From: Thermus caldilimi
GTDB lineage: Bacteria; Deinococcota; Deinococci; Deinococcales; Thermaceae
Direction of reading: 5' to 3'
Assembly: GCF_004684245.1 (NCBI RefSeq)
Contig: NZ_CP038452.1
Coordinates: 496,001-560,000 of the forward strand
DNA length: 64,000 bases
Below are positions 10,508 to 52,108 of this stretch, piece by piece. Position 1 is the stretch's first letter. Each line of letters opens with the position of its first letter. Below the pieces are notes generated by a model. The model searched no databases and was not told where the DNA came from. It saw nothing but the letters and a program-made list of their open reading frames with translations. A program made the translations under genes and the position numbers.

Positions 10508-11650
10508 CTAGCCTTCTCCAAAAGCTTTGATCCCGGTGAGGTGGGCCCCGATCACCAGGGTCTGCACCTCGCTGGTTCCCTCGTAAAGGGTGAGGATGCG
10601 GGCGTCCCGATAAAGCCGGGCCACCTCGTACTCCTCGAAGAAGCCGTAGCCCCCGTGGACCTGGATAGCCCGGTAGGCCACGCGGTTGGCAGCTTCGGAA
10701 GCAAAGAGCTTGGCCATGCTGGCCTCGAGGGTATACCGCTCCCCTTTAAGCTTCTTGGCCACCGCCTGGTAGGTGAGGAGGCGGCTGGCCTCGAGGTCCA
10801 GCTTCATCTGGGCCAGATGCGCCTGGACCAGCTGAAAGCTGGCGATGGGCCTTCCGAACTGGTGCCTTTCCTTGGCGTAGCGGAGGGAAAGGTCCAAGGC
10901 CCGTTGCATGAGCCCCACCGCTCCCGCCGCCAGGGAAACCCGGCCGGTATCCAGGGTGGAAAGGGCGATTTTGAAGCCCTGTCCTTCCTCTCCCAAAACC
11001 CTGTCCTTGGGTATGCGCACCCCCTCCAGGAAGACCATGCCCGTGTCCGCAGCCCTAAGCCCCAGTTTTCCCTTTAACGGCGTGGTGCGTACCCCGTCCT
11101 CCCGTTCCACCAGGAAGGCAGTTATGCCCCTGCTGCCTTTCTCTGGATCGGTTTTGGCGAAGATGAGGAACACCTGGGCCACGTTGGCGTGGGAGATGAA
11201 GGTCTTCTGTCCTTCCAGCACATAGTGATCGCCATCCCGGTAAGCCCGGGTGCGGAGGCTTCCTGCATCCGAGCCCGCCTCAGGCTCGGTAAGGCCGTAG
11301 GCCCCTAGGATTTCCCCCCGGGCCAGGTGGGGGATGTAGCGCTTCTTCTGCTCGGGGGTGCCGTAGGTGAGGAGAGGGGTGAGGACCAGGCTTTGCTGCA
11401 CGGAAAGAATGGAGCGCAAGGAAGCGTATCCCCCAAGCTCCTCCAGAAGGGCGATGTAGGCCCAAAAGTCCAGGCCAGCTCCTCCCAGCTCCTCGGGCAC
11501 GAACACCCCCAGAAAACCCAGCTCCCCCATTCGCTTCACCAGGGGCCAGGGAAAGACTTCCTGGGCCTCGTACTCCGCCAGAGCAGGACCTGCTTCTTCC
11601 AGAAAGCGCCTGGCCAGCTGCCGGATCTCCTTGTGTTCAGGAATCTCCAT
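10508..11650 (-). CDS. Acyl-CoA dehydrogenase
   Basis: FAD enzyme that introduces the alpha-beta double bond in acyl-CoA in fatty-acid breakdown. The 380-residue protein has AYGLTEPEAGSDAGS in the middle domain and LYEGTSEVQ near the C-terminus, whose Glu is the catalytic base of most family members. It overlaps the TetR regulator gene by 14 bases, so expression is tied to autoregulation of the regulator. Substrate chain length cannot be deduced. Confidence 0.93.
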   Translation of the reverse strand: MEIPEHKEIRQLARRFLEEAGPALAEYEAQEVFPWPLVKRMGELGFLGVFVPEELGGAGLDFWAYIALLEELGGYASLRSILSVQQSLVLTPLLTYGTPEQKKRYIPHLARGEILGAYGLTEPEAGSDAGSLRTRAYRDGDHYVLEGQKTFISHANVAQVFLIFAKTDPEKGSRGITAFLVEREDGVRTTPLKGKLGLRAADTGMVFLEGVRIPKDRVLGEEGQGFKIALSTLDTGRVSLAAGAVGLMQRALDLSLRYAKERHQFGRPIASFQLVQAHLAQMKLDLEASRLLTYQAVAKKLKGERYTLEASMAKLFASEAANRVAYRAIQVHGGYGFFEEYEVARLYRDARILTLYEGTSEVQTLVIGAHLTGIKAFGEG

Positions 11651-12212
11651 GTTCTAACCCCTTTAGGATGAGATCAAAGTAGAACCTGGCCACCTCCTCC
11701 GCCCGCAAGGGCCCGCCCGGGCGGAACCAGCGGATCATCCAGTTGAGGAGGGAGAGGATGGCCCGGGCTGTGAGGCCCACATCCAGAGGGCGGAATACCC
11801 CCAGTGCCATGCCCCGCTCCAGGATGCTTCGGAGCATGCCCTCGTACCGGTCGCGCAGGGCGATGGTAACAGCTCGCTTCTCGGGAGAGAGGCTTTGCAA
11901 CCCTTGAAGCATGGCCACGAAAAAGGGCCGATTCTCTTCAAAGAAGCGGGCATGGCCTTCCATGAAGCGCAGAAGGGCTACCTTGGGGTCGGGTTCGGAT
12001 AGGGCTCTTTCTCCTTGGCGACGAAGGCCCTCCAGGGCCTGAAGGCTGATCTCGTAGAGAACCTCCTCCTTGCTCCGGAAGTGGTGGTAGAGTGCCGCCT
12101 TGGAGAGGCCCAGTGCCTCGGCCAGATCTTGGACGCTGGTCGCCTCGTAGCCTCTTTCCGTGAAAAGCCGGGCGGCTTCTTCCAGGATGCGGTCGCGTGT
12201 GGCGGTTCCCAT
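11637..12212 (-). CDS. TetR-family regulator of fatty-acid genes (FadR-like)
   Basis: 191 residues with a TetR helix-turn-helix in the first 50 (RDRILEEAARLFTERGY, then GLSKAALYHHFRSKEEVL) and a helical ligand domain. It is the first gene of the acyl-CoA dehydrogenase/MaoC cluster, and a perfect palindrome lies between its promoter and start. Known TetR-type FadR/PaaR proteins of T. thermophilus bind similar palindromes and release DNA on binding acyl-CoA. I infer the same here; the ligand is not visible in the sequence. Confidence 0.85.
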   Translation of the reverse strand: MGTATRDRILEEAARLFTERGYEATSVQDLAEALGLSKAALYHHFRSKEEVLYEISLQALEGLRRQGERALSEPDPKVALLRFMEGHARFFEENRPFFVAMLQGLQSLSPEKRAVTIALRDRYEGMLRSILERGMALGVFRPLDVGLTARAILSLLNWMIRWFRPGGPLRAEEVARFYFDLILKGLEHGDS

Positions 12213-12217
12213 ATCTC

Positions 12218-12231
12218 ACCGACCGGTCGGT
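12218..12231. promoter_or_regulatory. TetR/FadR-type operator palindrome
   Basis: ACCGACCGGTCGGT is a perfect 14-bp palindrome. It lies 6 bases upstream of the tetR ATG and directly after the predicted -10, so a bound dimer would cover the transcription start. The sequence type is that of acyl-CoA-responsive TetR regulators. Confidence 0.75.
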
Positions 12232-12237
12232 AAGTAC

Positions 12238-12266
12238 ACTCTACCCCTGGAGAAGAGGATAGTCAA
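12238..12266 (-). promoter_or_regulatory. Predicted promoter of the tetR/fatty-acid cluster
   Basis: Minus strand: TTGACT (12261-12266), 17-base spacer, TAGAGT (12238-12243). The start point would be near 12231, inside the palindrome, with a leader of about 20 bases. Confidence 0.65.
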
Positions 12267-12376
12267 GTGGCTTGGTGCCCTCTTCCACGTTTCCAAGCGC
12301 CTTGGCGTTATCTGGCCGATAGGGTGTTGCCAAACCCGCCATAAGTGTGGAAGTATGGAACACGAAGGAGGAGCTT

Positions 12377-13468
12377 ATGAAAATCACCCTTAGCGTCCTC
12401 AAGGCCGACATCGGTTCCGTCGGAGGCCACACCTTACCCAGCCGCAGGGTGCTGGCCAAGGTGGAGGAGGTGGTACGGGAGGAGGTGGGCCGCCTGCTCT
12501 TGGACGCCCACGTATTCCATATCGGGGACGACATCGTCCTCCTCCTCTCGCATACCCACGGCATTCGAAACGCATCCGTCCACGAGCTGGCCTGGAAAGC
12601 CTTCCGGGAAGGTACCCAGGTGGCCAAGGAGGAGGGTCTTTACGGGGCCGGGCAGGATCTTTTGAAGGATGCCTTCTCCGGTAACCTCCACGGCCTGGGG
12701 CCCCAGGTGGCGGAGATGGAATTCGAGGAGCGCCCCGCCGAGCCCTTCATGGTGCTGGCCGCCGATAAGACCGAGCCCGGGGCCTTCAACCTGCCCCTAT
12801 ACCTGGTTTTCGCCGACCCCATGTACTCCTCTGGTCTCCTGCTTTCCTCGGAGCTGCGCCCCGGTTTCCGCTTTCGCATCATGGACCTAGCCCAGACGGA
12901 GAGGGATAGCTACATCGTTTTGGATGCTCCCGAAAGGCTTTATGACATAGCCGCCTTACTTAGGGACTCCCACCGCTTCGGGATAGAGTCCATCTGGTCC
13001 AGGCGCTACGGGGAAATTGCTGCGGTGGTGAGCACCACGCGCTTGCGGAACATCGCCGGGCGCTACGTGGGTAAGGACGATCCCGTGGCCATCATCCGCA
13101 CCCAGAAGATCTTCCCCGCAACGGAGGAGTTCGGTCCACCCTTTGCCCTGGCGCCCTTCGTGGCCGGGGATACCCGGGGAAGCCACCACCTGCCCCTGAT
13201 GCCGGTAAAGGCCAATACCCCTGCCTCCACGTTCTTCTGCGTACCCATGGTGTGCGGGCTGGCCTTCTCCCTCAAGGAGGGCCGGTTCTCTGAGCCTGTG
13301 GATCTCTTTGCGGATCCGGTCTGGGATGCGGTGCGGGCCAAGGTGGTGGAAAAAGCTCAGGAAATGCGCCGTCAGGGATTTTACGGCCCGGCCATGCTGC
13401 CCATGGAGGAGCTCGAATACACGGGCATTGCCGAGCGGCTGAAGGAGCTTGAACGGGAGTTCTCCTAG
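12377..13468 (+). CDS. Fructose-1,6-bisphosphate aldolase/phosphatase (bifunctional)
   Basis: Archaeal-type enzyme that condenses triose phosphates to FBP and hydrolyses it to fructose 6-phosphate in one active site; a gluconeogenesis marker of thermophiles. It starts MKITLSVLKADIGSVGGH, includes HIGDD, KTEPGAFNLPL and FADPMYSSGL, and is 363 residues, normal for the family. ATG 12377 is preceded by GAAGGAGGAGC; a frame extending to 12347 lacks a better site. It is divergent from the tetR operon. I could not identify a clear promoter in the 110 bases between them. Confidence 0.93.
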   Translation: MKITLSVLKADIGSVGGHTLPSRRVLAKVEEVVREEVGRLLLDAHVFHIGDDIVLLLSHTHGIRNASVHELAWKAFREGTQVAKEEGLYGAGQDLLKDAFSGNLHGLGPQVAEMEFEERPAEPFMVLAADKTEPGAFNLPLYLVFADPMYSSGLLLSSELRPGFRFRIMDLAQTERDSYIVLDAPERLYDIAALLRDSHRFGIESIWSRRYGEIAAVVSTTRLRNIAGRYVGKDDPVAIIRTQKIFPATEEFGPPFALAPFVAGDTRGSHHLPLMPVKANTPASTFFCVPMVCGLAFSLKEGRFSEPVDLFADPVWDAVRAKVVEKAQEMRRQGFYGPAMLPMEELEYTGIAERLKELEREFS

Positions 13469-13504
13469 AGCCTCGAGGGGCCCCTGGGCTTAAGGCTTGG
13501 CGCT

Positions 13505-13612
13505 TCAGGTGGGGGTGTAGAACTTTTCCAAGGCCTGGGCTAAATAGAGAAGGGCGAGAGCCTCTTCCTCCACTCCCCGGGTAAGTTGCGCACAAGCCGG
13601 GCGAGGTTATGC
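13505..13612 (-). pseudogene. Fragment of a HEPN-domain protein
   Basis: The last reading (VEEEALALLYLAQALEKFYTPT, then stop) and the preceding GHNLARLVRNLPG in the neighbouring frame together resemble the end of HEPN-domain proteins, with the His of the domain followed by a terminal Tyr-containing helix. A frameshift separates the two parts and the N-terminal half is missing. HEPN proteins often pair with nucleotidyltransferases in toxin-antitoxin systems, but none remains here. Confidence 0.4.
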
Positions 13613-13712
13613 CCGCAGGGATTCAAGCCCAGAACGAACGGAAGGCTTTTCAGGGCCCTTCCCCCGGCCTACTCGGCCATGATAGCGGCCCAAGCCTTTA
13701 AGCCGCTTCTTC

Positions 13713-14163
13713 TCAGGACTTATAAAGGAGCACGGCTTCTTTTCCCAGGCCCTGATGCTCCCGCCAGGTCATGGGCCAGAGGACAAGATGGGCGGCCCTG
13801 CCCGCCAGGGTTTCCGCCAGGTGGGCGTGGAGGAGGAGGTGGGCGGAGCCCGTGAGCACGAAGTGTCCCGGAATGCGGGCCTCATCCACTGAGCGCTTGA
13901 TGGCCAGGAGGAGTTCAGGTACCCGCTGTACCTCGTCCAGGATGAGCTTGTCCTCCCTGCTCAGGAGGGCGCGCGGGTCAGCTTCCGCCTGGAGGGGAAG
14001 GTCCAGGTGGCCCAGGGTGAGGTAGAGGTGCTGGCTCAGGCTGGGCAGGTTGCGCACCAGGGTGGTTTTGCCTACATGCCGGCCTTCCATGACCGCCACC
14101 ACTAGGGAAGACCCGCATGAGCCTTTCCAGAAGGGACGCGGCCGTACGGGGTACGCAAGGCAT
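13713..14163 (-). pseudogene. Remnant of an AAA-type ATP-binding protein (AAA_14/DUF4143 type)
   Basis: Starts MPCVPRTAASLLERLMRVF at 14163. The frame shifts near 14104 (one extra base) and continues with VVAVMEGRHVGKTTLVRNLP (a Walker A motif), LILDEVQRVPEL (Walker B) and FVLTGSAHLLL (sensor). It stops after WPMTWREHQGLGK, so the C-terminal DUF4143 half is gone. A complete gene of this type is about 400 residues. Both the frameshift and the truncation mark it as decayed. Confidence 0.7.
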
Positions 14164-14294
14164 TTCCAGGTCCGAATGATCGTCATTCACAAGCGGAATA
14201 ACAAAGGGAACCCACTTGACCTCGAGGGAAGGTAAGGGGCACGCTGAAGCCCAAACTCCGACCAGGGCGCTCCACCCAGCCGAGGGATCGGGGT

Positions 14295-14464
14295 TCACAA
14301 GGAGAGCAGGGCCATCACCTCGTCCTTGTGCATCAACTCCTGCATGCTTCCTTCCACCCGCACCTTCCCGATTTCGAAAACGTAGCCTCGGTCCGCTACC
14401 CGGCCCGTGAAGCGGAGATTCTGCTTGGCTAGGAGCACGCGCATACCCTCCCGCTTCCACTTTT
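14295..14464 (-). pseudogene. C-terminal remnant of a LivF-type ABC ATPase
   Basis: About 55 residues: REGMRVLLAKQNLRF, RVADRGYVFEIGKVRVEG and a short tail to the stop at 14295. This matches the end of branched-chain amino-acid ATPase LivF, whose family reads VLLVEQN ... ADRGYVLE.G. Walker and signature motifs are missing. The 5' side ends abruptly at the phosphatase remnant on the opposite strand. Confidence 0.6.
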
Positions 14465-14723
14465 CGCTTACGGGCGGCTTTTGAGCCGTTCCTGGGACAC
14501 CCTTCTCATGGTGGTGCATGGCGGGGTCATCCGGGCGCTGCTCTCCTACGCCCTCACCGGGGAGAGGCGCTTGCTGGCCCTGGAGGTGCATCCCTGCGGC
14601 CTTTCCGTGCTGGACGTGGGCGAAAAGACCTTGCTCAGGGCCCACAACATCGTGGCCTACGACCTCTTGCCGGAAAGCCGCCTGTCCACGATGGAAATGC
14701 TGTGGGAGATGTACCGGGCGTAG
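14462..14723 (+). pseudogene. C-terminal remnant of a histidine phosphatase (phosphoglycerate-mutase fold)
   Basis: An open frame with TLLMVVHGGVIRALLSYAL, the second catalytic-His segment (VxHGGxxRALL) of histidine phosphatases, then HPCGLSVLDV to a stop at 14723. The N-terminal RHG active-site half is absent, so the protein could not work. It abuts the LivF remnant head to head, which suggests a deletion or recombination joint near 14460. Confidence 0.6.
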
Positions 14724-15326
14724 CCGAGGGTGTTCTCCACCGGCGAGACCTGGCTATGTTGTCCAAACCCGAGCTTCGAGTGAGGATGCATAGCGAGGAT
14801 TTATTGGAAGAGTGTCTTTGAAGCCAAAATACCAGAATACCTTCTTCAAGATCCCTTAAAGCTTACCGTCCTCTGTGCAGCGGAAGGAGCAGAATGGAAG
14901 TGGGCTGGGCGGAGGTTGAAGGGTTTTGCTGGGGTGGCGGTTCATTTGGGGTTGGGGCCCCAAAGCAGATAGAGTTGAAGCGGAGGCTGGAGCAGCGTTA
15001 TGCTCCCCAAACACAAACGCTTACACATAAATCTTGACATGACCGGGGAGGAGGTTTTGAGTGGTCTCTTCGATAAGACGAAGAGAACTGTGGGCCCACT
15101 TTTCAGGAAGTCAAGAGGGAAACGCCGACAGGAAAGGGGGTTCCAGGGTTGGAGACCTCAAATCCGGACTGGTGGTAAAAGGGTGGGTGGCCTAAGCCCA
15201 GCTTGTACCCGTTGAACGCGTCCCTGGAACCCACCTTCCCTTACCTGAATCTTTGCCTTATGAAACGTTGGCCAGAAAAGACTTGCTCTGCAGCGGTACT
15301 AGCCTACGGTCGGTGCACGACGCCAG
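14724..15326. other. Unassigned 600-base region
   Basis: No convincing gene. A 71-codon frame (15000-15215, plus) starts MLPKHKRLHINLD and is rich in Arg/Lys, but I recognise no family and no good ribosome site. GC is lower than the Thermus core on both sides. No tRNA, terminal repeats or transposase motif were seen. It continues the decayed zone to its left. Confidence 0.4.
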
Positions 15327-16883
15327 CTAAGGTAAGCGCATATGGATGACGCGCCTATCGATGTCCCAGCTCACTTGGACTCCGAGGATTTCCGCAAACA
15401 ATGCCGCAGGTACGAATAGATTCCCTTCTTCGAGGAATTCGGCTTCCCAATCCATGCCTATCCTGGTTCCGTTCCATTGGGCTTCGCGTGAACGCGGGAA
15501 GACGTGGAGCTCTCCTCGGTTAACGAGTAGAACCCTATATGCGGACGTGGAGCTGTCCCACATCACCCTTGCACCCAGAGCTTCAGCCACCGGTTGCAGC
15601 GGGACCATGATGTGGCCTGCCACGATCTTTGGGGACTGGGGTAGGGTGCGTCCATTCACAGTGAGCCCCAGCGCAGGACCCCCCAGGTTGCTGAAGTGTG
15701 CTTTAGAGATGAGTGCATGAATGCCTTTGGTACGGTCCACCACCTGCGAAACCTCGAAATCCCCCGCCACGCTGAGGTAAGCATAGGCCGTAGCCCTATC
15801 CAAACCCAGGCTCTCCACAAAGGCGATGGCCTCGCGGGTAGCCTTTTTCATCGCTTCATCAAGGTCAGGATCGAGTCCGATGGGTACCCATGCATCTGGT
15901 AGGTCAATGAAGGGTTGCACGAGCGTTCCCTTCCCCCCAGGAATTTGTGCATCTCCCTTACGGAGCAGGCTGAGTCGTAAGCGGGCACGCAACGATCCCT
16001 CGAGGGCCGTGAGGGCCACCTCCCCGTTTCCCTGAACAAAGTGGGGATCGCCCACGTAGAAGAGCGCACCCTGTACGAAGACAGGCAAGTAAACGGTGGC
16101 TCCCACTCCTACGTACTTTACATCCATGTTTCCACCATACTCTGCTGGTGGTATCGAGTTAACGCGCTCGCTGGTGTTGGGTGCTACCCCCATAATGCCT
16201 AGAAATGGTCGGAGCGGGAAGCGGATCTCGTCACCGTTCTGAGCATATAGGATGCCGTACCATGTACCCTTGATCTGGCGGATGGGGGTGAAAATGGACA
16301 CGTTGTAGTACAAGTGAGGCCTCGACGGACTCGCTTCGGGTTGCCGTCCTTGGTTAGCTGGCAATTCACCAGGTAGCGCACCCTTACCGTGGCGATTCGA
16401 GATCACGCCATACGGCACGCGTGGTGTTAGTTCCAGCACCTCAACTTTCAACACATCTCCAGGCTGTGCGCCATCGATGGCGATGGGACCTGTCACAACA
16501 TGCGGTCCGTCCTTGTCGAAGTCATGGGGCACGGAGCGAGCAATGGCTTTAGCGTCCTCCAGGACATCTTCGGGGCGTATACCATACTTGCCAAAGAACC
16601 GTACAGGGTCACGACCTTGATCTTCGAGGATCCCCTCGTGAGACACGGTGTCGATGATAATTTCGGTGCCCGACTTTACGGTCATTACGGGCTTTGCGTC
16701 CTTGTTTGGCAAGTAGCCCCAGCGGACTGTATCTGGCGAGGAGGGGAGATATTGGACCGCTGGTGGTATTGCGACTCCAGGTTGCAACACCTTGACCCCC
16801 TGTTTTTGAGCATATGAATGCAAGGTGATGGCAAGTCCTATGAAGGCGATCAGCACCCTTGACTTCCCGAGGCGTTTCATCAT
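15327..16883 (-). CDS. Secreted acetamidase/formamidase-like protein with C-terminal Cu-amine-oxidase-N-like domain
   Basis: 518 residues. Residues 1-25 form a signal peptide (MMKRLGK, hydrophobic core, cut after SYA). Residues ~40-390 match the FmdA/AmdA family, which hydrolyses short amides to ammonia and acid, for example DTVSHEGI, GPIAIDGAQPGDVLKVEV, GDPHFVQGNGEV and AYAYLSVAGDFEVSQVVD. Residues ~405-518 (LTVNGR, VPLQPVAEALGA, FVPAALFAEILG) look like the substrate-free copper-amine-oxidase N-terminal domain used as a wall or surface module in secreted proteins. Family members are normally cytoplasmic and lack this part. SD GGAGGTGA precedes ATG 16883. Confidence 0.8.
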   Translation of the reverse strand: MMKRLGKSRVLIAFIGLAITLHSYAQKQGVKVLQPGVAIPPAVQYLPSSPDTVRWGYLPNKDAKPVMTVKSGTEIIIDTVSHEGILEDQGRDPVRFFGKYGIRPEDVLEDAKAIARSVPHDFDKDGPHVVTGPIAIDGAQPGDVLKVEVLELTPRVPYGVISNRHGKGALPGELPANQGRQPEASPSRPHLYYNVSIFTPIRQIKGTWYGILYAQNGDEIRFPLRPFLGIMGVAPNTSERVNSIPPAEYGGNMDVKYVGVGATVYLPVFVQGALFYVGDPHFVQGNGEVALTALEGSLRARLRLSLLRKGDAQIPGGKGTLVQPFIDLPDAWVPIGLDPDLDEAMKKATREAIAFVESLGLDRATAYAYLSVAGDFEVSQVVDRTKGIHALISKAHFSNLGGPALGLTVNGRTLPQSPKIVAGHIMVPLQPVAEALGARVMWDSSTSAYRVLLVNRGELHVFPRSREAQWNGTRIGMDWEAEFLEEGNLFVPAALFAEILGVQVSWDIDRRVIHMRLP

Positions 16884-16909
16884 GGTTCACCTCCTCCTGT
16901 GCTACACCA

Positions 16910-16923
16910 GGGTGGGCCCACCC
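16910..16923. promoter_or_regulatory. Perfect palindrome in the acetamidase leader
   Basis: GGGTGGGCCCACCC, 14 bp, lies at about +4 to +17 of the predicted transcript between promoter and ribosome site. The location suits a repressor operator; as RNA it has no loop. No regulator can be assigned from sequence, though a GntR regulator is encoded 800 bases away. Confidence 0.4.
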
Positions 16924-16933
16924 TTGGCCCGGA

Positions 16934-16962
16934 AGTATAAATATAAGGCCACGCAATGTCAA
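16934..16962 (-). promoter_or_regulatory. Strong predicted promoter of the acetamidase-like gene
   Basis: Minus strand: consensus TTGACA (16957-16962), 17-base spacer, TATACT (16934-16939). It is among the best housekeeping promoters in the window. The leader is about 44 bases. Confidence 0.75.
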
Positions 16963-17037
16963 GCGGACGGATGGCGGGTGCACACAGAAGACATCACAGC
17001 GCTCACTTCTGGGCGCTATAAAGGGACTGCCTGCCAC

Positions 17038-17067
17038 TATAGTATTGGCCAAACGAACAATACTATA
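17038..17067. repeat. 9-bp inverted repeat in the low-GC intergenic region
   Basis: TATAGTATT (17038-17046) and AATACTATA (17059-17067) are perfect inverted arms around a 12-base centre. The surroundings are unusually AT-rich for this genome. It could be an operator for the divergent genes on either side or a remnant of inserted DNA; nothing decides between these. Confidence 0.5.
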
Positions 17068-17338
17068 TCTACAAAATGCGAATCTAGCCAGCCTGGCGAC
17101 CCTCCCATTTACCTGTGGCTTCGTTGTGAACGCACGGCCTTCGGGGCAGATGAGCGCTTAAGGAAGCCTCCGAGAAGTTGTGACTGTGTTGGATGGTTCT
17201 GCGCCGGAAAAACGAGAATAGCAGGAGCATTAATCAAGAGGAGAACATAGAGCCTATACTGCAGAAACAGAAAGTGAAAAAGATGCGATATACAGAACAT
17301 AGTGAGCCCTAACTGGATCCTAATTGTCGAGAATCGAG

Positions 17339-17367
17339 TTGACGCTACGCACATGCAAGTTTATGAT
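17339..17367 (+). promoter_or_regulatory. Predicted promoter upstream of the small hypothetical gene
   Basis: TTGACG (17339-17344), 17-base spacer, TATGAT (17362-17367). The start would be near 17374, about 25 bases ahead of a GGAGGT ribosome site (17399-17404) and ATG 17410. Confidence 0.6.
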
Positions 17368-17409
17368 ATTCGGCGGAAGTCGAGCCCTAGGGGCTTCTGG
17401 AGGTAGGGT

Positions 17410-17679
17410 ATGGGGAGCGACGCTGGAGGGCTGAATATCTGGCAGGAGGGGCTAGAGGTCCCGACGTGGGGATGTCCCAGAGAGGGAAACCCGAATGAAC
17501 ATTTCGGAACGGTCCTGGGCATTGCGGCTACTCATAAGGTTGCATTAAGAGGGGCCCTGTTGGCCAGCAAGGAAAGCTTAACCCATGGAATGGCTCAGAG
17601 AGCGCTGAGGGTCGATGGAGTGGTAGGTGTGGCATTTACTGGTTTCGGGGTGGTTGACAAGTCCTCTGGAAGTGGTTAG
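17410..17679 (+). CDS. Small hypothetical protein
   Basis: 89 residues starting MGSDAGGLNIWQEG; no family recognised, no membrane segment or Cys cluster. It is listed because promoter, GGAGGT site (5-base spacing) and ATG are correctly arranged. Against it: codon use is less GC3-biased than real Thermus genes nearby, and its 3' end overlaps the predicted gntR promoter. It may instead be a decayed fragment or an untranslated leader of gntR. Confidence 0.3.
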   Translation: MGSDAGGLNIWQEGLEVPTWGCPREGNPNEHFGTVLGIAATHKVALRGALLASKESLTHGMAQRALRVDGVVGVAFTGFGVVDKSSGSG

Positions 17680-17682
17680 CTT
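17654..17682 (+). promoter_or_regulatory. Possible gntR promoter
   Basis: Consensus TTGACA (17654-17659) with a weak -10, TAGCTT (17677-17682), at 17-base spacing. The start would fall near 17689, just before the operator-like TGGT-N3-ACCA. Confidence 0.45.
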
Positions 17683-17694
17683 ATGTGTCAACAG

Positions 17695-17705
17695 TGGTCT
17701 AACCA
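17695..17705. promoter_or_regulatory. GntR/FadR-type operator
   Basis: TGGTCTAACCA has the TGGT-N3-ACCA symmetry typical of FadR-subfamily GntR sites. It lies 8 bases before the gntR start, and a wider inverted repeat TGGTCT-N7-AGACCA shares it. Autoregulation of gntR and the importer behind it is inferred. Confidence 0.55.
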
Positions 17706-17713
17706 TAAGACCA

Positions 17714-18430
17714 ATGACCCGCATGAGACGCACCCGCTTAGCCAACCTCATTGCCCATGAGCTTGAAACCCTTATCCAGGAGGGGGTTTGGGTGCCGGGT
17801 GCGTACCTGCCCCCGGAGCGGGTTCTTGCCGACCGGTTTAAGGTCAGCAGGGTTTCCATACGGGAGGCCCTGCGTTTGCTGGAGGCACGAGGGGTTATCG
17901 AGATCCACCCAAGCAGTGGCGCAAGGGTTAGGTCCTCGACCACCGCGGTAGGGCACCTGCTGGCCAGCCGCCTGGAAGGCCTGAGCCTTACCGACCTCTT
18001 CGAATTCCGCTATATCGTCGAGCCGGAGGCGGCGGCCCTGGCCGCGAAGCGGGCGGATAAGGATGTGCTGGACCGCCTGGCGGAGATCCTTACGGAACAG
18101 GAGGCGTCCCTCCAGGACGTTCACGGCTTCCTGGCCCTGGATTTGGAATTTCACCGACTCATCGCCGTGGCCTCCGGAAACGGCGTTCTTCAGGAGATGG
18201 TTTCCGCGCTGAATGCGGGGCTCAGGGAAACCCGTCTGCGCGCGATCAAGGCCACATTCGACCCGATCCGTAGCCTGGAGGGCCACAGGCGGGTGCTAAA
18301 GGCCATCCTTTCAGGGGATGCAGATGGGGCCCGCCAGGCGATGAGGCAACACCTGAAGGAGGTGGAAGCGTCGGCTCTGGGAGCTGGCGTGCCACGGGGA
18401 GGTGATGAAGGATGGGAAGGGCATGGCTAG
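17714..18430 (+). CDS. GntR-family (FadR/FCD) transcriptional regulator
   Basis: 238 residues. The N-terminal winged helix spans ~10-75 (LPPERVLADRFKVSRVSIREALRLLEARG) and an FCD ligand domain follows, with the metal-binding pattern around EFRYIVEPEA, DLEFHRLIAVASGN and SLEGHRRVLKAI. ATG 17714 fits the promoter and operator; longer readings from 17627 would run over them. The substrate-binding protein gene starts inside its last 19 bases, so it almost certainly controls the importer. FCD regulators usually sense organic acids or amino-acid-like ligands. Confidence 0.85.
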   Translation: MTRMRRTRLANLIAHELETLIQEGVWVPGAYLPPERVLADRFKVSRVSIREALRLLEARGVIEIHPSSGARVRSSTTAVGHLLASRLEGLSLTDLFEFRYIVEPEAAALAAKRADKDVLDRLAEILTEQEASLQDVHGFLALDLEFHRLIAVASGNGVLQEMVSALNAGLRETRLRAIKATFDPIRSLEGHRRVLKAILSGDADGARQAMRQHLKEVEASALGAGVPRGGDEGWEGHG

Positions 18431-19893
18431 TGGCGGCGGTGGCGCTGTTAAGTTTGGCTACCGCGAAAACGACGGTGACCGTGGGCCTGGATGCGGATCC
18501 CCCTAACCTCGATCCCGTGTTTTCCTCGGCCTTGGTGGACCGTCAGGTGCTGAACCAGATCTACGACAAGCTCCTCGACATCGACCAGGATCTGAAGATC
18601 GTGCCCATGCTGGCCACCAGCTGGTCGGTGGGGAACAACGGCACGGTATACACCTTCAAGCTCCGCCAGGGGGTCAAGTTCCACGATGGCACGGACTTCG
18701 ATGCGGAAGCGGTTAAGTTCAACCTTGACCGCGCGCTTACCGCCGAGGGTTCGCGTCGGAAAGGGGAACTTGCCCCGGTAAAGGAGGTGCAGGTCGTCGA
18801 CAAGTACACGGTTCGCGTCGTCCTGAAGGACGCCTTCTCGCCATTCCTGTACGTCTTGACCGACCGGGCCGGGATGATGGTCAGTCCGGCTGCCGCGAAG
18901 CGGTACGGCCAGGACCTGGCCAACAATCCCGTGGGCACCGGACCCTTCCGGTTTGTTGAGCGGAAGCGCCAGGACCGCATTGTTCTCCAGAGAAACGAGG
19001 GCTACTGGAAGCGGGGCTACCCGAAGATCGATGAGCTGATCTACAGGCCTTTCCCTGACGACGATGTCCGGTTGGCCAACCTGCTTTCGGGTGCGGTCAC
19101 GGTGATTACTCCCGTGGCCCCCAAGGATCTGGCGCGGGTTCGCGGCGATGCGAACTTAAACCTCTTCGCCTTCCCGAGCCTGGGGTTCCAGGGCGTCTGG
19201 CTCAACGTGACCCGGCCCCCCTTCAACAACAAGGCTCTCCGGCAAGCCTTTGCGGCCACCGTCGACCGCGAGACCATCGACCGGGTGGTCTTCCTGGGCA
19301 CGGCCACCCCGGCCAACGGGCCCTTTCCTCCTGGCTCCCCGGCCTACGATCCCAGTATCCCGATCCCCAAGCGGGACATCAACCTCGCGCGGAAAAAGCT
19401 TCAGGAGACGGGCTTTGCCAGCGGCTTCTCCTTCACCCTGCTGACCACGCCGGGCCCTGTCCTGACCCAGCTGGCCCAGGTTTACCAGGCCATGGCCGCC
19501 GAGGCGGGGATTCGCATTCAGATCCAACAGGTGGAGTTCGGCACCCTGCTGGACCGGACAGATAAAAAGGACTACGAGGCAGCCCTCCTGGGCTGGAGCG
19601 GCCGACCGGATCCGGACGGGAATATCTACGATTTCATGCGCTGCGGCGGCCCCTTGAACAATGCGGGTTACTGTAACCCCAAGGTGGACGCCCTGCTTAA
19701 CCGGGCCCGGGCCACGCGGGTCATGGAGGTGCGGAGAAGCCTGTACTCGGAGGCCCTCAGGATCATCCACGAGGATGTTCCCTACGTCTACGTCTATCAC
19801 CCCCAGGTTCTGATCGGGGCCTCCAAGCGGCTCAGCGGTCTTCCCCTGATCCCCGATGGGATTCTTCGGTTTGTAGGAGCGGAGCTGAAGTGA
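18412..19893 (+). CDS. Peptide/nickel-type ABC transporter substrate-binding protein
   Basis: 493-residue SBP_bac_5 family protein. It has a signal peptide (~residues 1-18) without a lipobox Cys, then the family signatures TVGLDADPPNLDPVFSS, ATSWSVGNNGTVYTFKLR and VKFHDGTDFDAEAV. It binds peptides or related solutes outside the membrane and docks to the two permeases encoded next. ATG 18412 follows GGAGGTGATG. The DppB-like gene overlaps its end by four bases. Specificity cannot be read from the sequence. Confidence 0.9.
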   Translation: MGRAWLVAAVALLSLATAKTTVTVGLDADPPNLDPVFSSALVDRQVLNQIYDKLLDIDQDLKIVPMLATSWSVGNNGTVYTFKLRQGVKFHDGTDFDAEAVKFNLDRALTAEGSRRKGELAPVKEVQVVDKYTVRVVLKDAFSPFLYVLTDRAGMMVSPAAAKRYGQDLANNPVGTGPFRFVERKRQDRIVLQRNEGYWKRGYPKIDELIYRPFPDDDVRLANLLSGAVTVITPVAPKDLARVRGDANLNLFAFPSLGFQGVWLNVTRPPFNNKALRQAFAATVDRETIDRVVFLGTATPANGPFPPGSPAYDPSIPIPKRDINLARKKLQETGFASGFSFTLLTTPGPVLTQLAQVYQAMAAEAGIRIQIQQVEFGTLLDRTDKKDYEAALLGWSGRPDPDGNIYDFMRCGGPLNNAGYCNPKVDALLNRARATRVMEVRRSLYSEALRIIHEDVPYVYVYHPQVLIGASKRLSGLPLIPDGILRFVGAELK

Positions 19894-20834
19894 TCCCCTA
19901 CCTCCTCCGCCGCCTTGTGGAAGCTTTGCCCACCCTGTTCCTGGTGTCGGTGGTGGTGTTCTTCCTGACGCGGATACTTCCTGGCGATCCCGTCCGCCTC
20001 CTGCTCGGGGAAGAGCCCGACCCCAAGGTGGCGGAGGAGGTGCGGAGAAGCCTGGGTCTGGATCGACCTCTCCTCGTCCAGTATGCCGGCTGGCTGTGGA
20101 ACCTGTTTCAGGGCGACCTGGGCCGGTCCATCAAGGATGGAACTCCCGTGGCGAGGCTGATTCTCGAGAAGCTTCCCACGACCATAGAGCTCGCCACCCT
20201 GGCCATGCTGGTGGCACTGGCCATCGGCCTGCCTAGCGGAGTGGTAGCGGCCGTTCGCAGGGGGACGTGGCTCGACGGCCTGGTGACGTCGACCTCCCTA
20301 ATGGGCGTTTCCGTTCCCAACTTTTTCCTCGGCATCATGCTTATTTACCTTTTTAGCCTGCGCTTGGGCTGGGTGCCGCCCTCGGGATACGTGGAGCTGT
20401 GGACCGACCCTAAGCGCAATTTACTGCTAATGGTCTTGCCGGCCTTCACATTGGGCACGGCGTTGGCTGGAGCGATCGCGAGGTTTACCCGTAACAGCTT
20501 ACTGGAGGTGCTTTCTCAGGACTACATCCGGACGGCGAAGGCGAAAGGGGTTTCATCCGCGGCCATCGTGCTGAAGCATGGGCTCCGCAACGCAGCCATT
20601 CCCATCGTGACGGTCCTGGGTCTACAACTTGGGGGGCTTTTGGGAGGCGCTGTGGTCACAGAGCAGATCTTCTCCATACCGGGCTTTGGACGTTTGGTGG
20701 TGGACGCCGTGTTTACCCGCGACTTCACCGTTTTGCAGGGAGTGGTGTTGACATCCGCCCTGGCCGTATTCGTGGTCAATACCGCGGTGGACGTCCTTTA
20801 TGCCCTGATCGATCCCCGGATCAGGTATCGGTGA
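19890..20834 (+). CDS. DppB-type ABC permease
   Basis: 314 residues, six predicted membrane segments. The N-terminus MIPYLLRRLVEALPTLFLVSVVVF and the periplasmic segment GDPVRLLLGEEPDPK are diagnostic of DppB/OppB. The cytoplasmic EAA loop is DYIRTAKAKGVSSAAIVLKHGLRNA. GTG start overlaps the SBP stop. It pairs with the DppC-type permease 3 bases downstream. Confidence 0.92.
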   Translation: MIPYLLRRLVEALPTLFLVSVVVFFLTRILPGDPVRLLLGEEPDPKVAEEVRRSLGLDRPLLVQYAGWLWNLFQGDLGRSIKDGTPVARLILEKLPTTIELATLAMLVALAIGLPSGVVAAVRRGTWLDGLVTSTSLMGVSVPNFFLGIMLIYLFSLRLGWVPPSGYVELWTDPKRNLLLMVLPAFTLGTALAGAIARFTRNSLLEVLSQDYIRTAKAKGVSSAAIVLKHGLRNAAIPIVTVLGLQLGGLLGGAVVTEQIFSIPGFGRLVVDAVFTRDFTVLQGVVLTSALAVFVVNTAVDVLYALIDPRIRYR

Positions 20835-20837
20835 CCC

Positions 20838-21683
20838 ATGGTTGCGCGTAGGGTATGGCGCCGCCTCCTTGGGCATCCCACCGGGGCACTGGGTGGGTTG
20901 GTCTTGGGGCTCTTTGTCCTGGGCTCCCTGGGTGCTCCCTGGCTCAGCGCTCACTCCCCCGTAACCACCGACTTCAACAGCCTCCTGCGCCCGCCTTCCC
21001 TTACCCACCCCTTTGGTACGGACGAGCTAGGAAGGGACGTGTTGGCCAGGGTCCTGTACGGGGGCAGGGTGTCCCTGACCGTAGGGGTAGCCTCAGTAGC
21101 GCTCGCCCTCCTGGTGGGCGGTCTTTGGGGGTTGGCGGCGGGTTACTTCCGGGGGTGGTTGGACTCCGTGCTCATGCGGTTGGTGGATGCGCTCCTGGCC
21201 TTCCCCTTTCTGGTGCTCGCCATCACCCTGGCGGCGATCCTGGGGCCGGGTCTTTCCAACAGCATCCTGGCCATTACCGTGGTAACTTCCCCGGCGGTAG
21301 CCCGGCTGGTGCGGGGCCAGGTTCTGGCGGAGGTGGGAAAGGATTATGTGACCGCGGCAGAGGCCATAGGGGCACCCCATTCCCGGATCCTCTTTCGGCA
21401 TATTCTGCCCAACCTGTGGGGCCCGTTGATCGTGCAGGGAAGCCTGGCCACAGCGAACGCCATTTTGGCGGAGGCGACCTTGTCTTTTCTTGGCCTGGGG
21501 GTTCAGCCTCCCACGCCGGCCTGGGGCTCGATGCTAAACGCCGCTCGCGGCTATTTGGACAGCGCACCCTGGCTGGCGGTCTTTCCCGGTTTGGCCATCT
21601 TTTTGGTGGTGCTGTCGTTCAACCTGCTGGGCGATGCCCTGAGGGATGCCCTTGACCCACGGACGGAGAGGAAGCTTGCGTAA
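20838..21683 (+). CDS. DppC-type ABC permease
   Basis: 281 residues. It has the DppC/OppC N-terminal cytoplasmic region, the segment TDELGRDVLARVLYGGRVSLTVG, and an EAA loop at DYVTAAEAIGAPHSRILFRHILPN. Last gene of the importer. The DppD and DppF ATPases that normally follow are absent, so ATPases must be supplied from elsewhere. Confidence 0.92.
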   Translation: MVARRVWRRLLGHPTGALGGLVLGLFVLGSLGAPWLSAHSPVTTDFNSLLRPPSLTHPFGTDELGRDVLARVLYGGRVSLTVGVASVALALLVGGLWGLAAGYFRGWLDSVLMRLVDALLAFPFLVLAITLAAILGPGLSNSILAITVVTSPAVARLVRGQVLAEVGKDYVTAAEAIGAPHSRILFRHILPNLWGPLIVQGSLATANAILAEATLSFLGLGVQPPTPAWGSMLNAARGYLDSAPWLAVFPGLAIFLVVLSFNLLGDALRDALDPRTERKLA

Positions 21684-22300
21684 GGTAAGGGAATCCAGGA
21701 CCCGATACCGCAGGCCCCACCGCCTCCTTGAGGCCGGGGTGGGCCTGGGTAACGGGGTGGAGGTGGTCGACGCCCAGGTTTCCTCCGTACCAGGGTACAT
21801 TTGGTGCGGTGAGGACCGTGATGGGATCGGTGGAGAGGGGCGGTGAGGATCCGGGGGCCTGGCCTGCGGGCAGAGGATTTTCCTGTGCGCTATTCGGAGG
21901 TTTCCCTATGGGAAGGGGAGAGCATACGGAGATCCTCGATCTGGGGGCGGCGCCCTGCTGGCCACAAGGACCCCTCGGATCCTTCAAGAGGAGGGCGGGA
22001 TGGGGGCCACCTGGTTGGAGCGTATGGGGGGCAATGGGCCGTCAGGCCCTGCCCTTGGAACCCCAATCCGATGGAGGAGGTCGTGGGCTGGATAGCTTTC
22101 TTTGCCACCCCGCTCATGGGTCAAGACCTTCAGCTGGCCACGAGGAGGCGATACATGATAGGGCGGTTGCTTAGGAAACACCATCAGTTTCAGGAGTTGA
22201 CTTGCAGGCTTTGGGGAGCGGCTATGGACCCCAAGGTGGATGGGGTGGCGGATGCGCCCATACGGGTTGGGTCCACCCGCGGCGGTAGGGGGGGTGCACG
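21684..22300. other. 617-base gap, possibly decayed coding DNA
   Basis: High GC and several long open frames (for example 21843-22304, plus), but no frame shows a recognisable family and codon bias is scattered between frames, as in a decayed gene. No riboswitch or clear promoter was identified. A G7 tract (22288-22294) acts as ribosome site of the next gene. Confidence 0.35.
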
Positions 22301-23893
22301 GTGATGGACCTCACCTACTACCCCTACCCTTCCCGCCGGCACGTGGTTCTTGGCCGCCGGGGTGCGGTGGCCACCAGCCAACCCCTGGCGGCGTTGGCGG
22401 GGATGGAGATGCTGCTCAAAGGGGGAAACGCGGTGGATGCGGCCATCGCCATGGCGGCCACCCTCACGGTGGTGGAGCCCACCAGCAACGGGATCGGGGG
22501 CGACCTGTTTGCCATGGTATGGGACGGCACGCTCCACGGGCTGAACGCTTCCGGAAAGAGCCCCTTAAGCCTGACTCCCGAGCGGATTCCCGAGGGGGGA
22601 ATGCCGGAAAGGGGCTGGCTCCCGGTGACGGTGCCCGGAGCGGTCTCGGGGTGGCGCGCTTTGCACGAACGCTTCGGCAGGCTCCCGTTCCCCGAGGTCC
22701 TTGCCCCCGCCATCCGCTACGCGGAGGAGGGCTTCCCGGTGGGACCGGAGACGGCCCGGGCCTGGCGCAGGGCGGAGGGGATCTACCTGCCCCTGAAGGG
22801 CCCGGAATTCCAGCCCTTCCAGGAGACCTTCTTCCCCCAGGGAAGAGCCCCCCGGGCCGGGGAGGTGTGGCGAAGCCCTGGGCACGCCAAGACCCTAAGG
22901 GAGATCGCTGAAACCTACGGGGAGAGCTTCTACCGGGGAAACCTGGCGGAGGCCATGGCGGGGTTCAGCGAGGCCACGGGAGGCCTCCTTACCCTGGAAG
23001 ACCTCAAGACCCACGAGGCGGAATGGGTGAACCCCCTCTCCCTGGAGTACCGGGGCCTCACGGTCCACGAACTGCCCCCCAACGGACAGGGAATCGCCAC
23101 CCTGCTGGCCCTGGCCATCCTGGAGGGCTTCGAACTCCGACCGGAAGACCCCTTCAGCTACCACTTACAGATCGAGGCCATGCGCCTGGCCCTGGCGGAC
23201 GCCTTCCACTACGTGGCCGACCCCCGCTACCTGGAGAAGCCCCCCCAGGCCCTGCTCTCCCCCGAATACGTGGCCTCCCGCCGAAGCCTCATCGGGGAAC
23301 GAGCCCTGCCCCAGGCCCTGCCCGGGGTGAGACCCGGGGGAACCGTCTACCTGGCGGCGGCGGACGGGGAACTCATGGTCTCCCTCATCCAGTCCAACTA
23401 CCAGGGCTTCGGCTCGGGGATCCTGGTTCCCGGGACGGGGATCGCCCTGCAAAACCGGGGCCTGGGCTTTTCCCTGGAGGAGGGCCACCCCAACCGGGTG
23501 GGACCGGGTAAACGGCCCTATCACACCATCATCCCGGGATTTCTCACCCGGGAGGGCAGGGCCCTGGGCCCCTTTGGGGTCATGGGGGGCTATATGCAAC
23601 CCCAGGGACACCTGCAGGTGGTGGTGGGCCTGACGAACTTTGACCTGAACCCCCAGGCGGCGCTGGACCGGCCGCGGTGGCAGGTGGTGCCGGGTAGGGG
23701 AGGGGAGGACCGGGTGGTGCTGGAGCCGGGAATCCCGCAGGCCACCGCCTTGCTCCTGCGGGACCTGGGTCACCGGGTGGAATACGGGATGGAGCCCGGA
23801 TACTTTGGCCGGGGCCAGGTGATCCTGCGTCAGGGAGAGGTGCTGGTGGCGGGATCGGATCCCCGGGCGGAGGGGTTGGCTTTGGTGTGGTAA
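22301..23893 (+). CDS. Gamma-glutamyltransferase family protein
   Basis: 530 residues of the Ntn-hydrolase GGT family, which cleaves gamma-glutamyl bonds (glutathione, gamma-glutamyl peptides) or related amides after self-processing. GGNAVDAAIAMAATLTVVEPTSNGIGGD is the family signature. RPGGTVYLAAADG contains the likely processing Thr, T348, and GFGSGI follows. Most GGTs are exported; this one begins MMDLTYYPYPSRRHVVLG with no signal peptide, so it is probably cytoplasmic. GTG 22301 or ATG 22304 could be the start. It may process peptides brought in by the upstream importer; inference. Confidence 0.88.
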   Translation: MMDLTYYPYPSRRHVVLGRRGAVATSQPLAALAGMEMLLKGGNAVDAAIAMAATLTVVEPTSNGIGGDLFAMVWDGTLHGLNASGKSPLSLTPERIPEGGMPERGWLPVTVPGAVSGWRALHERFGRLPFPEVLAPAIRYAEEGFPVGPETARAWRRAEGIYLPLKGPEFQPFQETFFPQGRAPRAGEVWRSPGHAKTLREIAETYGESFYRGNLAEAMAGFSEATGGLLTLEDLKTHEAEWVNPLSLEYRGLTVHELPPNGQGIATLLALAILEGFELRPEDPFSYHLQIEAMRLALADAFHYVADPRYLEKPPQALLSPEYVASRRSLIGERALPQALPGVRPGGTVYLAAADGELMVSLIQSNYQGFGSGILVPGTGIALQNRGLGFSLEEGHPNRVGPGKRPYHTIIPGFLTREGRALGPFGVMGGYMQPQGHLQVVVGLTNFDLNPQAALDRPRWQVVPGRGGEDRVVLEPGIPQATALLLRDLGHRVEYGMEPGYFGRGQVILRQGEVLVAGSDPRAEGLALVW

Positions 23894-23961
23894 TTGGGGA
23901 GAGATTGAGCACAAGGGAGTTTCATCGTGAATATTAACACAAATACCATGCACAAACGCTA

Positions 23962-25743
23962 CTACCACTCACGCCAGCCCTTCCCTAAGGCATACAAGTA
24001 CACCACCGCTGCCGCATCCCATGCCTGGGGCCTGCAAGCTACGGGATAGGGAACCGGAGGCAAGCCTCCTTCTCTGGGAAACCCCCCAACCAGCTCGGGC
24101 AGGCGCATGTCGGGTTGGGAGAGGGCCAGGTCCAAGAGCGCATTGGCCACCCTCTGGCCCTCTTCCTGGAAACCATATCGAAACAATCCCCCCGCCAAAA
24201 GCGCCGTGTCATGGGGCCATACTGAACCGTTGTGGTAGGAAAGGGGGTTATAACGCACCTCCCGGGCACCCAAGGTACGTATCCCCCAACCTGACCATAA
24301 TTCCTCGGAAAACAACGTTTCCAGCAGTTCGGGCAGGACCTCCCTAGGAACAGCTCCGGCCCAGAGGAGATGGCCAGCGTTGGAAGCCTTGACCTTAAGG
24401 GGCTCTTTATAGCGGTCTAAGGCCAGGGCGTAGGTGGAAAGCTCGGGAAGCCAAAACTTTTCCTGGATGAGGCGGAAGAGCCTTCCTGCGTGCTCCAGTA
24501 AACTCTTGGCTCTATCCTTTTCCCCTAGAACCTGGTAGAGCTTTGCTCCTTCCAGGTAGGCAGCGTAGGCGTATCCCTGCACCTCACTCACCGCCAAGGG
24601 AGTTTCAGCCAAGCGGCCGTCCCGGTGGCTCATGGAATCGTGGGAATCTTTCCAGGCCTGGACGGCCAGGCCCGTGCCGCTTGGCTGAAACTCCAAAAGC
24701 CCATCCCCATCCAGATCCGCCTGATCCAGCCAGGCTAGGGCAGCCTCCCACTGTGGCCGAAGCTCCTGAATCAGGGCCAGGTCTCCTACCAAATCCAGGT
24801 ACCGGCCCAGAAGGATGAGGAAGAGGGGTGTAGCGTCCACCGTGCCGTAGTACCGGAAAAAAGGCACCCGGTGAGTGCGAGAAAGCTCTCCAACCCGCAC
24901 CTCGTGCAGGATCTTTCCTGGCTCCTCCTCCCGCCAGGGGTCAAAAACTGCCCCCTGCCTTGCGGCCAGGTAGCGGAGAACCCCCTGGGCCACTCTCTTT
25001 CCCCAGGGGAGGATCATAAAGGCAGTGATGAGGCTGTCCCGACCGAAGGGGGCTACAAACCAGGGAATTCCGGCAGCAGGCACAGGCCCCTGGGGGGTGG
25101 AAAGGAGAAGGGCTCTGAGGTCCAAGAGGGCCTGGCGCAAAGCACCTTCCCAAGAACCCTCTCCTTGAGGAAAGGCCTCGAGGAACTCCTCGTACCCGGG
25201 TAGGGAGCCCGGAGCCTCGAGGGGACTTTCCAACCGTACCTCCCAACCCACCTCCCCAACTCCCTTGGGGGGTAGGTAGAGACGAAAACCCCCCTCCGGT
25301 GCCTCAGGAACAAACACCACCCGCTGCTCCACTCCATCTGCGGCTCGGTAGAGAAAACCCACCCCGTTTTCCACCTTGGGATGCCATCCCCGGGCTTGAA
25401 AGAGGTCGGAGAACTCACCTTGGGCCTGCACCTCCACTCGCACTTCCTCAGGCTCAGGGGAAAGGTTTAGGAAGCTTAACCGCTCCTCCACCTTCCCCCG
25501 GTGAACCCGGAGGAGGCGGCGCAGGTAGAGCTCCCCTTCTGCGCCACGAAAGCGGGCCCAGTCCTGAACCAGGTAATCGGGTCTTGGAGAACGGCTTTCC
25601 AAGAGCACTAGACCTCGCGGCAATAGAAGCCGGTAACGGGAAAGGAAGCGGGTGTCGTGCCGGTAGAATCCCTCCGCCTCCTCTTCAGCAAAACCCCTCT
25701 CGTTCAAAACCAGGTAGGTGTCGTCCTCCTTAAGAGGCACCAT
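23962..25743 (-). CDS. Glycogen-debranching-like (alpha,alpha)6-barrel glycosidase
   Basis: 593 residues. The N-terminal beta-rich GDE_N_bis-type domain spans ~1-260 (DDTYLVLNERGF, GFYRHDTRFLSRY). A six-hairpin barrel follows with WFVAPFGRDSLITAF and AWKDSHDSM, the acidic catalytic region of amylo-alpha-1,6-glucosidase-like proteins. ATG 25743 is used; frames extending upstream overlap the permease. It acts in the cytoplasm on oligosaccharides, presumably those imported by the three co-transcribed transport proteins. The exact linkage is unknown. Confidence 0.8.
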   Translation of the reverse strand: MVPLKEDDTYLVLNERGFAEEEAEGFYRHDTRFLSRYRLLLPRGLVLLESRSPRPDYLVQDWARFRGAEGELYLRRLLRVHRGKVEERLSFLNLSPEPEEVRVEVQAQGEFSDLFQARGWHPKVENGVGFLYRAADGVEQRVVFVPEAPEGGFRLYLPPKGVGEVGWEVRLESPLEAPGSLPGYEEFLEAFPQGEGSWEGALRQALLDLRALLLSTPQGPVPAAGIPWFVAPFGRDSLITAFMILPWGKRVAQGVLRYLAARQGAVFDPWREEEPGKILHEVRVGELSRTHRVPFFRYYGTVDATPLFLILLGRYLDLVGDLALIQELRPQWEAALAWLDQADLDGDGLLEFQPSGTGLAVQAWKDSHDSMSHRDGRLAETPLAVSEVQGYAYAAYLEGAKLYQVLGEKDRAKSLLEHAGRLFRLIQEKFWLPELSTYALALDRYKEPLKVKASNAGHLLWAGAVPREVLPELLETLFSEELWSGWGIRTLGAREVRYNPLSYHNGSVWPHDTALLAGGLFRYGFQEEGQRVANALLDLALSQPDMRLPELVGGFPREGGLPPVPYPVACRPQAWDAAAVVYLYALGKGWREW

Positions 25744-42742: not shown

Positions 42743-42746
42743 GTGG

Positions 42747-51232: not shown

Positions 51233-51243
51233 GGAGGCGGGAG

Positions 51244-52083
51244 ATGGGGCAGAGGGGGGTGGCCTGGTTCCTGGCCCTTCCGGGACTGGCGGTCCTGGGT
51301 GGGGTGGTGGGCCTCCCCCTTCTGTACGCCCTCTTCCTCTCCCTGACCGGCTACAGCTTCCTCAGGCCAAGCTACGACTGGGTGGGGCCTGCCCGGTACC
51401 AGGAGGCCTTCCGCGACCCCTATTTCCTCCATGCCCTGGGCCTCACCGCCTTGTACGTGGCTGTTACCGTGGGCCTCACCCTGGTGCTGGCCCTGATCCT
51501 GGCGGTGCTCCTGCAGCAGAACCTGCCCTGGAAGGGGTTTCACTACTTCGTGGTGAGCCTGCCCATGCTCATCGCCCCGGTGGGGGTGGGGCTCATATGG
51601 AAGATGATCCTGCACCCGGAGCTAGGGATTCTCTCCTACCTCTTCGGGAAGGTGGATTTCTTTGGGGATGCCCGCTACGCCCTCTTTTCCCTGGCCCTGG
51701 TGGACGTGTGGCAGCAGGTGTCCTTTGCCGCCTTGGTGCTCCTGGCGGGCCTGAGGAGCCTGCCCAAGGAGCCCCTGGAGGCCGCCTACGTGGACGGGGC
51801 CACCCCCTGGCAGGCCTTTTTGCGGGTGACCCTACCCCTCCTGCGTCCCGTGCTGGTGGTCCTTCTCATCCTGCAGACCCTGGCGGAGGTGCGCACCTAC
51901 GACCTGGTCTACGTGCTGACCCGCGGAGGGCCCGGTTCCGCCACGGACCTGGTGAGCTACTACATCTACCGCAAGGCCTTTTTGGGCCTGGACCTCTCCG
52001 GGGCCAGCGCCATGGGCTACCTCCTCCTTCTCCTCACCCTGGCCCTGGTGGCGGCCTACTACCGGCTCCTGACGCGGGGCTGA
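51244..52083 (+). CDS. CUT1 sugar ABC permease, MalF type
   Basis: 279 residues, six membrane helices, EAA loop PLEAAYVDGATPWQAFLRVTLPLLRP. It lacks the extra N-terminal helices and P2 domain of enteric MalF, as usual for MalF-type proteins in this group. It starts 11 bases after the binding-protein gene and would pair with the frameshifted MalG-type permease upstream. Confidence 0.92.
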   Translation: MGQRGVAWFLALPGLAVLGGVVGLPLLYALFLSLTGYSFLRPSYDWVGPARYQEAFRDPYFLHALGLTALYVAVTVGLTLVLALILAVLLQQNLPWKGFHYFVVSLPMLIAPVGVGLIWKMILHPELGILSYLFGKVDFFGDARYALFSLALVDVWQQVSFAALVLLAGLRSLPKEPLEAAYVDGATPWQAFLRVTLPLLRPVLVVLLILQTLAEVRTYDLVYVLTRGGPGSATDLVSYYIYRKAFLGLDLSGASAMGYLLLLLTLALVAAYYRLLTRG

Positions 52084-52108
52084 CAAGTCCTTGGGAAGGT
52101 GGTGTGCG

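Follow-up and report, generated by a model that had tools for sequence, protein, structure and literature searches.

A putatively exported FmdA/AmdA-family amidase with a C-terminal PF07833 domain in a probably inserted segment of the Thermus caldilimi genome

A stretch of 64,000 nucleotides from Thermus caldilimi (contig NZ_CP038452.1, positions 496,001 to 560,000), referred to here as the window, contains on its minus strand a coding sequence at 15327..16883, whose product of 518 aa combines a putative signal peptide, an acetamidase/formamidase (FmdA/AmdA) domain and a C-terminal PF07833 domain, as derived from the open reading frame (ORF) and Pfam. We favour, with moderate confidence, the reading that this protein belongs to the FmdA/AmdA family, was acquired by horizontal transfer, and acts on small amides as an exported hydrolase with a self-folding PF07833 tail. 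The computed basis of this reading comprises the architecture, the domain folds, the insertion that carries the gene and the same architecture found elsewhere.

The acetamidase/formamidase domain covers residues 40-401 (15681..16766, minus strand), according to PF03069 (E 4.8e-31, 108.5 bits against a cut-off of 27, in two stretches) and the structural match to 3b9t, and the PF07833 (Cu_amine_oxidN1) domain covers residues 409-514 (15342..15659, minus strand; E 6.5e-20, 71.5 bits against a cut-off of 24.2), spanning positions 2-107 of the 108 in the Pfam model. The catalytic amine oxidase domain was absent from the protein in the Pfam search (E up to 0.01). The NCBIfam equivalog for formamidase FmdA, NF045496, scored 79.5 bits against a cut-off of 500, so the substrate is not nameable from that model and the name 'FmdA formamidase' is not warranted. 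An AlphaFold model of the whole protein, built from 23 aligned rows (mean predicted local distance difference test score, pLDDT, 84.0; predicted template modelling score, pTM, 0.73), resembles FmdA structures only between about residues 40 and 401. The amidase domain model is closest to 3b9t (Z 40.2, root-mean-square deviation, rmsd, 2.6, 332 aligned), with further matches to 2ii1 (Z 35.7), 5ubu (35.1), 2f4l (35.1), 3tkk (35.0) and 2wkn (21.1). The last 117 residues were folded alone from the single sequence (pLDDT 81.8, the five models ranging from 81.8 to 45.8), and this tail model matched the N-terminal domain of E. coli amine oxidase (1qak, residues 6-81) with Z 11.1, rmsd 2.2 and 76 aligned, the next other protein reaching Z 5.0; Foldseek matched the same domain at E 7e-4. 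The resemblance is weaker when the tail is taken from the whole-protein model (Z 5.0), and the best match of the tail sequence to the PDB has E 0.62. The original prediction had proposed that a domain was added at the C-terminus, beyond the amidase fold, and the Pfam limits and both structure matches agree with it: as modelled, the tail is a separate domain that lies outside this fold.

The amidase ORF had been predicted exactly, and its start is Sec-like by eye. The putative signal peptide was placed by eye and by hydropathy at residues 1-25 (16809..16883, minus strand), with the cut falling after SYA, between MMKRLGKSRVLIAFIGLAITLHSYA and QKQG; it has a basic start, a hydrophobic core with a mean hydropathy of 2.87 over 12 residues, and S-Y-A preceding the cut, and the AlphaFold model has a helix at 2-27 with pLDDT of about 45-54. 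Export from the cytoplasm is thus probable, but it is not peculiar to this protein. The closest structure, 3b9t, an acetamidase/formamidase of Methylobacillus flagellatus with the same fold, was deposited as a twin-arginine translocation (Tat) signal protein, although it is Tat by name, not Sec, and its match to the window protein stops at the end of the amidase domain. Untailed relatives from Acinetobacter (L084), Palleronia (L085) and Rhodobacteraceae (L023) belong to the same subfamily, with FmdA domains 58-61% identical and starts resembling signal peptides by eye, but unlike the window protein they stop a few residues past the amidase domain; L084 was scanned and is without PF07833, and the other two were judged untailed by their length. 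Two Acinetobacter baumannii records carry the acetamidase with the signal-peptide-like start beside psd (L084, 5995-7215), 56% identical over residues 7-407 of the window protein. Judging from these sequences, export appears to be characteristic of the near FmdA subfamily, and the tail to be a subsequent addition made on one or several occasions. The earlier suggestion of action outside the cell holds insofar as export is probable from the sequence and from the signal-like starts of most of the nearest relatives, but export is not special to this protein.

One scan of a species genome collection gave 40 related loci. Of those with a frame readable throughout, L022, from a Desulfovibrio metagenome-assembled genome, is the only one with the tail (the frame of L029 was not readable and L057 runs off its contig); the near actinobacterial relatives stop at about residue 400. 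A further tailed protein, L086, came from a sample of the phylum around L022 (24 of 297 genomes with any match), and two more, L128 and L129, from a sample of the family (21 of 199 genomes with any match). The search for other proteins of the same architecture therefore yielded four Desulfovibrio-related genomes with FmdA plus PF07833, and in all four proteins PF07833 is above its cut-off. Their FmdA domains are 54-63% identical to that of the window protein, PF07833 stands at the same place and the lengths, with the starts chosen here, are 507-517 aa; unlike the amidase domains, the tails have diverged, with PF07833 at E 3e-7 to 5e-11. The gene neighbourhood of L022 also looks different, by eye, from that of the window. 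Many cytoplasmic homologues carrying the same tail would have spoken against the architecture as an export-related one, and this is not what was found: L022, L086 and L128, three of the four, have strongly hydrophobic, signal-peptide-like N-termini. None of the 1161 matching records in a plasmid collection attained 60% identity, and among the best 40 of them none reached the end of the tail; likewise, none of the matches listed reached it in Chloroflexota (195 of 400 genomes with a match) or Pseudomonadota (75 of 398), and the four stretches of viral contigs that matched a pattern did not code for a relative. The samples for tailed FmdA were without Bacillota, in which PF07833 is common, so tailed FmdA proteins might still occur there. 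A literature search, in which few subscription journals were covered, turned up no paper on a fusion of FmdA with PF07833.

A tree of 49 rows gave no firm place to the window protein among its near relatives. In a second tree, whose 19 rows were picked from those 49, the window protein fell in a set of eight rows with seven exported or tailed proteins (support 100/99). In both trees L084, L022 and L086 were flagged for a letter make-up unlike the rest, and the trees were built without L029, L042, L045, L048, L056-L058, L060, L061 and most loci from the genome-sample searches.

The gene lies in a segment of about 8.8 kb (13505..22290, with edges set by comparison with G026, the nearest relative fetched) between the genes for fructose-1,6-bisphosphatase (FBPase; 12347..13468, plus strand; PF01950), a left flank conserved in seven of the eight stretches fetched from the 26 other genomes of the genus, and a protein like gamma-glutamyltranspeptidase (GGT; 22301..23893, plus strand; PF01019), which has a long DNA match in 25 of those 26. 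The two genes are 8,832 bp apart in the window versus 52-123 bp (by tblastn ends) in seven of the eight relatives, the eighth stretch, from G047, showing no FBPase within it; about 8.8 kb was therefore either inserted here or lost in all those relatives, and insertion is the simpler reading. The flanks of G026 align at 91% to 11500-13504 and 22291-25500 of the window, with 28 bp between them. No orthologue of the window amidase was found in the 26 other genomes of the genus, the only match besides this genome being another FmdA in G047 (39% over residues 121-408); in the family, 19 of 50 genomes have some match. Of 27 genus genomes, this is the one in which PF07833 occurs, and 12 of 50 genomes of the family have it. 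A genus-wide DNA search gave nothing within 15058-18609 among the matches listed, and a second one gave a single match of 27 bp there, at 18019-18045. Short stretches at 14892-15057 recur at many places in other genomes of the genus, several near contig ends, as the ends of insertion sequences do, with three further short matches in the own genome.

The base composition adds less to the case for transfer. The amidase ORF has a GC content of 0.561 and a GC content at third codon positions (GC3) of 0.609, the fifth lowest among 42 long ORFs of the window (mean 0.750, sd 0.114), which were picked mechanically and some of which may be shadow frames. The GC3 of the tail (0.622) is similar to that of the body (0.603), which fits a gene that arrived fused, and since the other whole genes of the insert have GC3 values of 0.701-0.814, the insert may be a mosaic. 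A sigma-70-like site, TTGACA-17-TATACT (16934..16962, minus strand; 11/12 of the consensus), stands about 50 nt upstream of the ATG. The scanned region has two promoter-like sites where shuffles averaged 1.9, so the argument for this site is its position only. Transfer, as originally predicted, is supported by the insertion between FBPase and GGT and by the lack of an orthologue in the genus; the low-GC stretch cited for it is real but weak when taken alone, the insertion comparison being the better argument, and the 'excellent promoter' was rejected as evidence of transfer, its count equalling the shuffled expectation. Within 14500-18500, no Rfam family exceeded its gathering score.

In the mechanism that we propose, the gene would have arrived already fused, in the 8.8 kb insertion together with the genes for the GntR-type regulator and the ABC importer of the peptide type, beside the resident GGT gene. 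Guided by the signal peptide, the amidase would leave the cytoplasm through the Sec pathway; outside, the FmdA domain would cleave a small amide, and the PF07833 domain would fold alone and most likely join subunits and stabilise the enzyme outside the cell, or, as an alternative within the same proposal, dock it to a part of the envelope. Actual export, catalysis, the substrate, the role of the tail and control by the GntR protein are what we infer here. The FmdA_AmdA family comprises hydrolases of short-chain aliphatic amides, according to PMC12421990, and the window protein is likely an active enzyme, because it keeps the polar positions N252, D254, D279, H281, E288 and E295, which are invariant in the 23 aligned rows. 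For the tail, by analogy, stabilisation or dimerisation of the enzyme appears the most likely role. It is preferred because it was measured in the Cys-less CuZn superoxide dismutase (SOD) of Paenibacillus lautus (8IMD), an exported enzyme fused to a PF07833 domain, which there forms a dimer and raises the melting temperature (Tm) from 38.0 C without the domain to 50.5 C in the full-length protein (PMC10432803). In that protein, unlike in the window protein, the PF07833 domain is N-terminal and the enzyme is a different one.

It is possible, though rather doubtful, that the tail is instead a surface or cell-wall attachment module that displays the enzyme on the envelope. PF07833-type domains are described as frequent on wall hydrolases in Desulfotomaculum (PMC4137172), but the sole characterised PF07833 domain considered dimerises (PMC10432803). 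The hosts of the tailed proteins found have envelopes of the Gram-negative type, unlike Desulfotomaculum, which we also counted against such attachment.

An unlikely reading is that the enzyme acts in the periplasm, as a lactamase or by hydrolysing 5-oxoproline or gamma-glutamyl amides, and supplies the neighbouring GGT and peptide importer. The insertion does sit beside GGT, and 2wkn, titled as a gamma lactamase of Delftia acidovorans with its chain named formamidase, shares the fold. Moreover, FmdA genes of another, cytoplasmic-type subtype adjoin GGT in three Deinococcota genomes, G047, G006 and G012 (L156, 6125-8658; L003, L004, L005), the two frames overlapping by one base in G047, and in an Acidimicrobiia genome a relative from the present subfamily (51% identical) adjoins it as well (L030, 6001-8639). 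These sequences hint at a possible functional pair of FmdA and GGT with a shared substrate chain. On the other side, such adjacency was seen in only three of 27 Deinococcota FmdA loci (with short flanks) and one of the 40 loci of the species genome collection, and GGT is here a resident flank, outside the insert. GGT is also nearly universal in the genus without FmdA, which counts against a shared chain: it is present in 25 of the 26 other genomes, and among these G047 alone gave an FmdA match. One may further speculate that PF07833 is a portable module for dimerisation and heat stabilisation, and that the fusion turned a member of a mostly cytoplasmic amidase family into a durable extracellular scavenger of small amides or lactams, such as 5-oxoproline, which arises readily from glutamine in hot water, for the neighbouring importer and GGT; we give this a low probability. 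That the amidase is a passenger of a mobile segment, functionless in this host, is improbable, since the ORF is full length and keeps the positions invariant in its relatives, both domains are above their Pfam cut-offs and AGGAGGAGGT stands ahead of the start, even though apparent gene fragments are present in the insert as well, along with a short repeat seen again elsewhere in the genus.

Several points weigh against the exported, acquired amidase that we favour. The tails of the tailed proteins can be aligned only in pieces, at 23-36% identity, while the bodies are 54-63% identical, so either the tail changed rapidly or the fusion took place several times, and in the 19-row tree a single group of the tailed proteins was neither rejected (p-AU 0.268, approximately unbiased test) nor shown. 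The structural match of the tail to 8imd, the dimerisation domain from Paenibacillus, is weak (Z 2.9; Foldseek E 0.33), so the dimer role rests on membership of the PF07833 family. Small-amide hydrolysis is argued from family membership and the kept positions, and export from a reading of the sequence by eye and from hydropathy; one of the four tailed relatives, L129, has no visible signal peptide. With regard to transfer, two genomes of the genus are incomplete (87% and 65%), the GC3 of the amidase is just about 1.2 sd below the window mean, and the four other whole genes of the insert, with their higher GC3, possibly came from another source.

Apart from its tail, export and transfer, the amidase is an ordinary accessory gene, and its novelty is moderate because other genomes, too, encode exported FmdA proteins and this fusion. 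What makes the case worthwhile is that an enzyme family that is usually intracellular has, on this reading, moved outside, acquired an extra domain and entered a new phylum by way of an insertion, and that it offers a small, testable case for what PF07833, which is found on many exported bacterial proteins and is little understood, does for its partner enzyme.

The remaining genes of the insert lie on the plus strand. A GntR-FCD regulator (17627..18430; PF07729, PF00392), divergent from the amidase gene, is followed by a family 5 solute-binding protein of the peptide/glutathione type (18412..19893; PF00496, E 2.8e-96), whose best NCBIfam model is GsiB at 282 bits against a cut-off of 594, and by two permeases of the same ATP-binding cassette (ABC) transporter (19890..20834, PF00528 and PF19300; 20838..21683, PF00528 and PF12911). 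The apparent gene fragments of the insert, at 13713-14186 and 14481-14723, are part of an AAA_14 ATPase and a C-terminal part of a histidine phosphatase (His_Phos_1). Elsewhere in the window, long ORFs at 42743-43897, 51180-52373 and 60948-61943 have GC3 values of 0.45-0.49, below that of the amidase, which could reflect shadow frames or a foreign origin. At L121 (298-2754), from another genus of the family, a PF07833 domain stands ahead of a predicted beta-propeller, beside a transposase-like ORF identified by eye.
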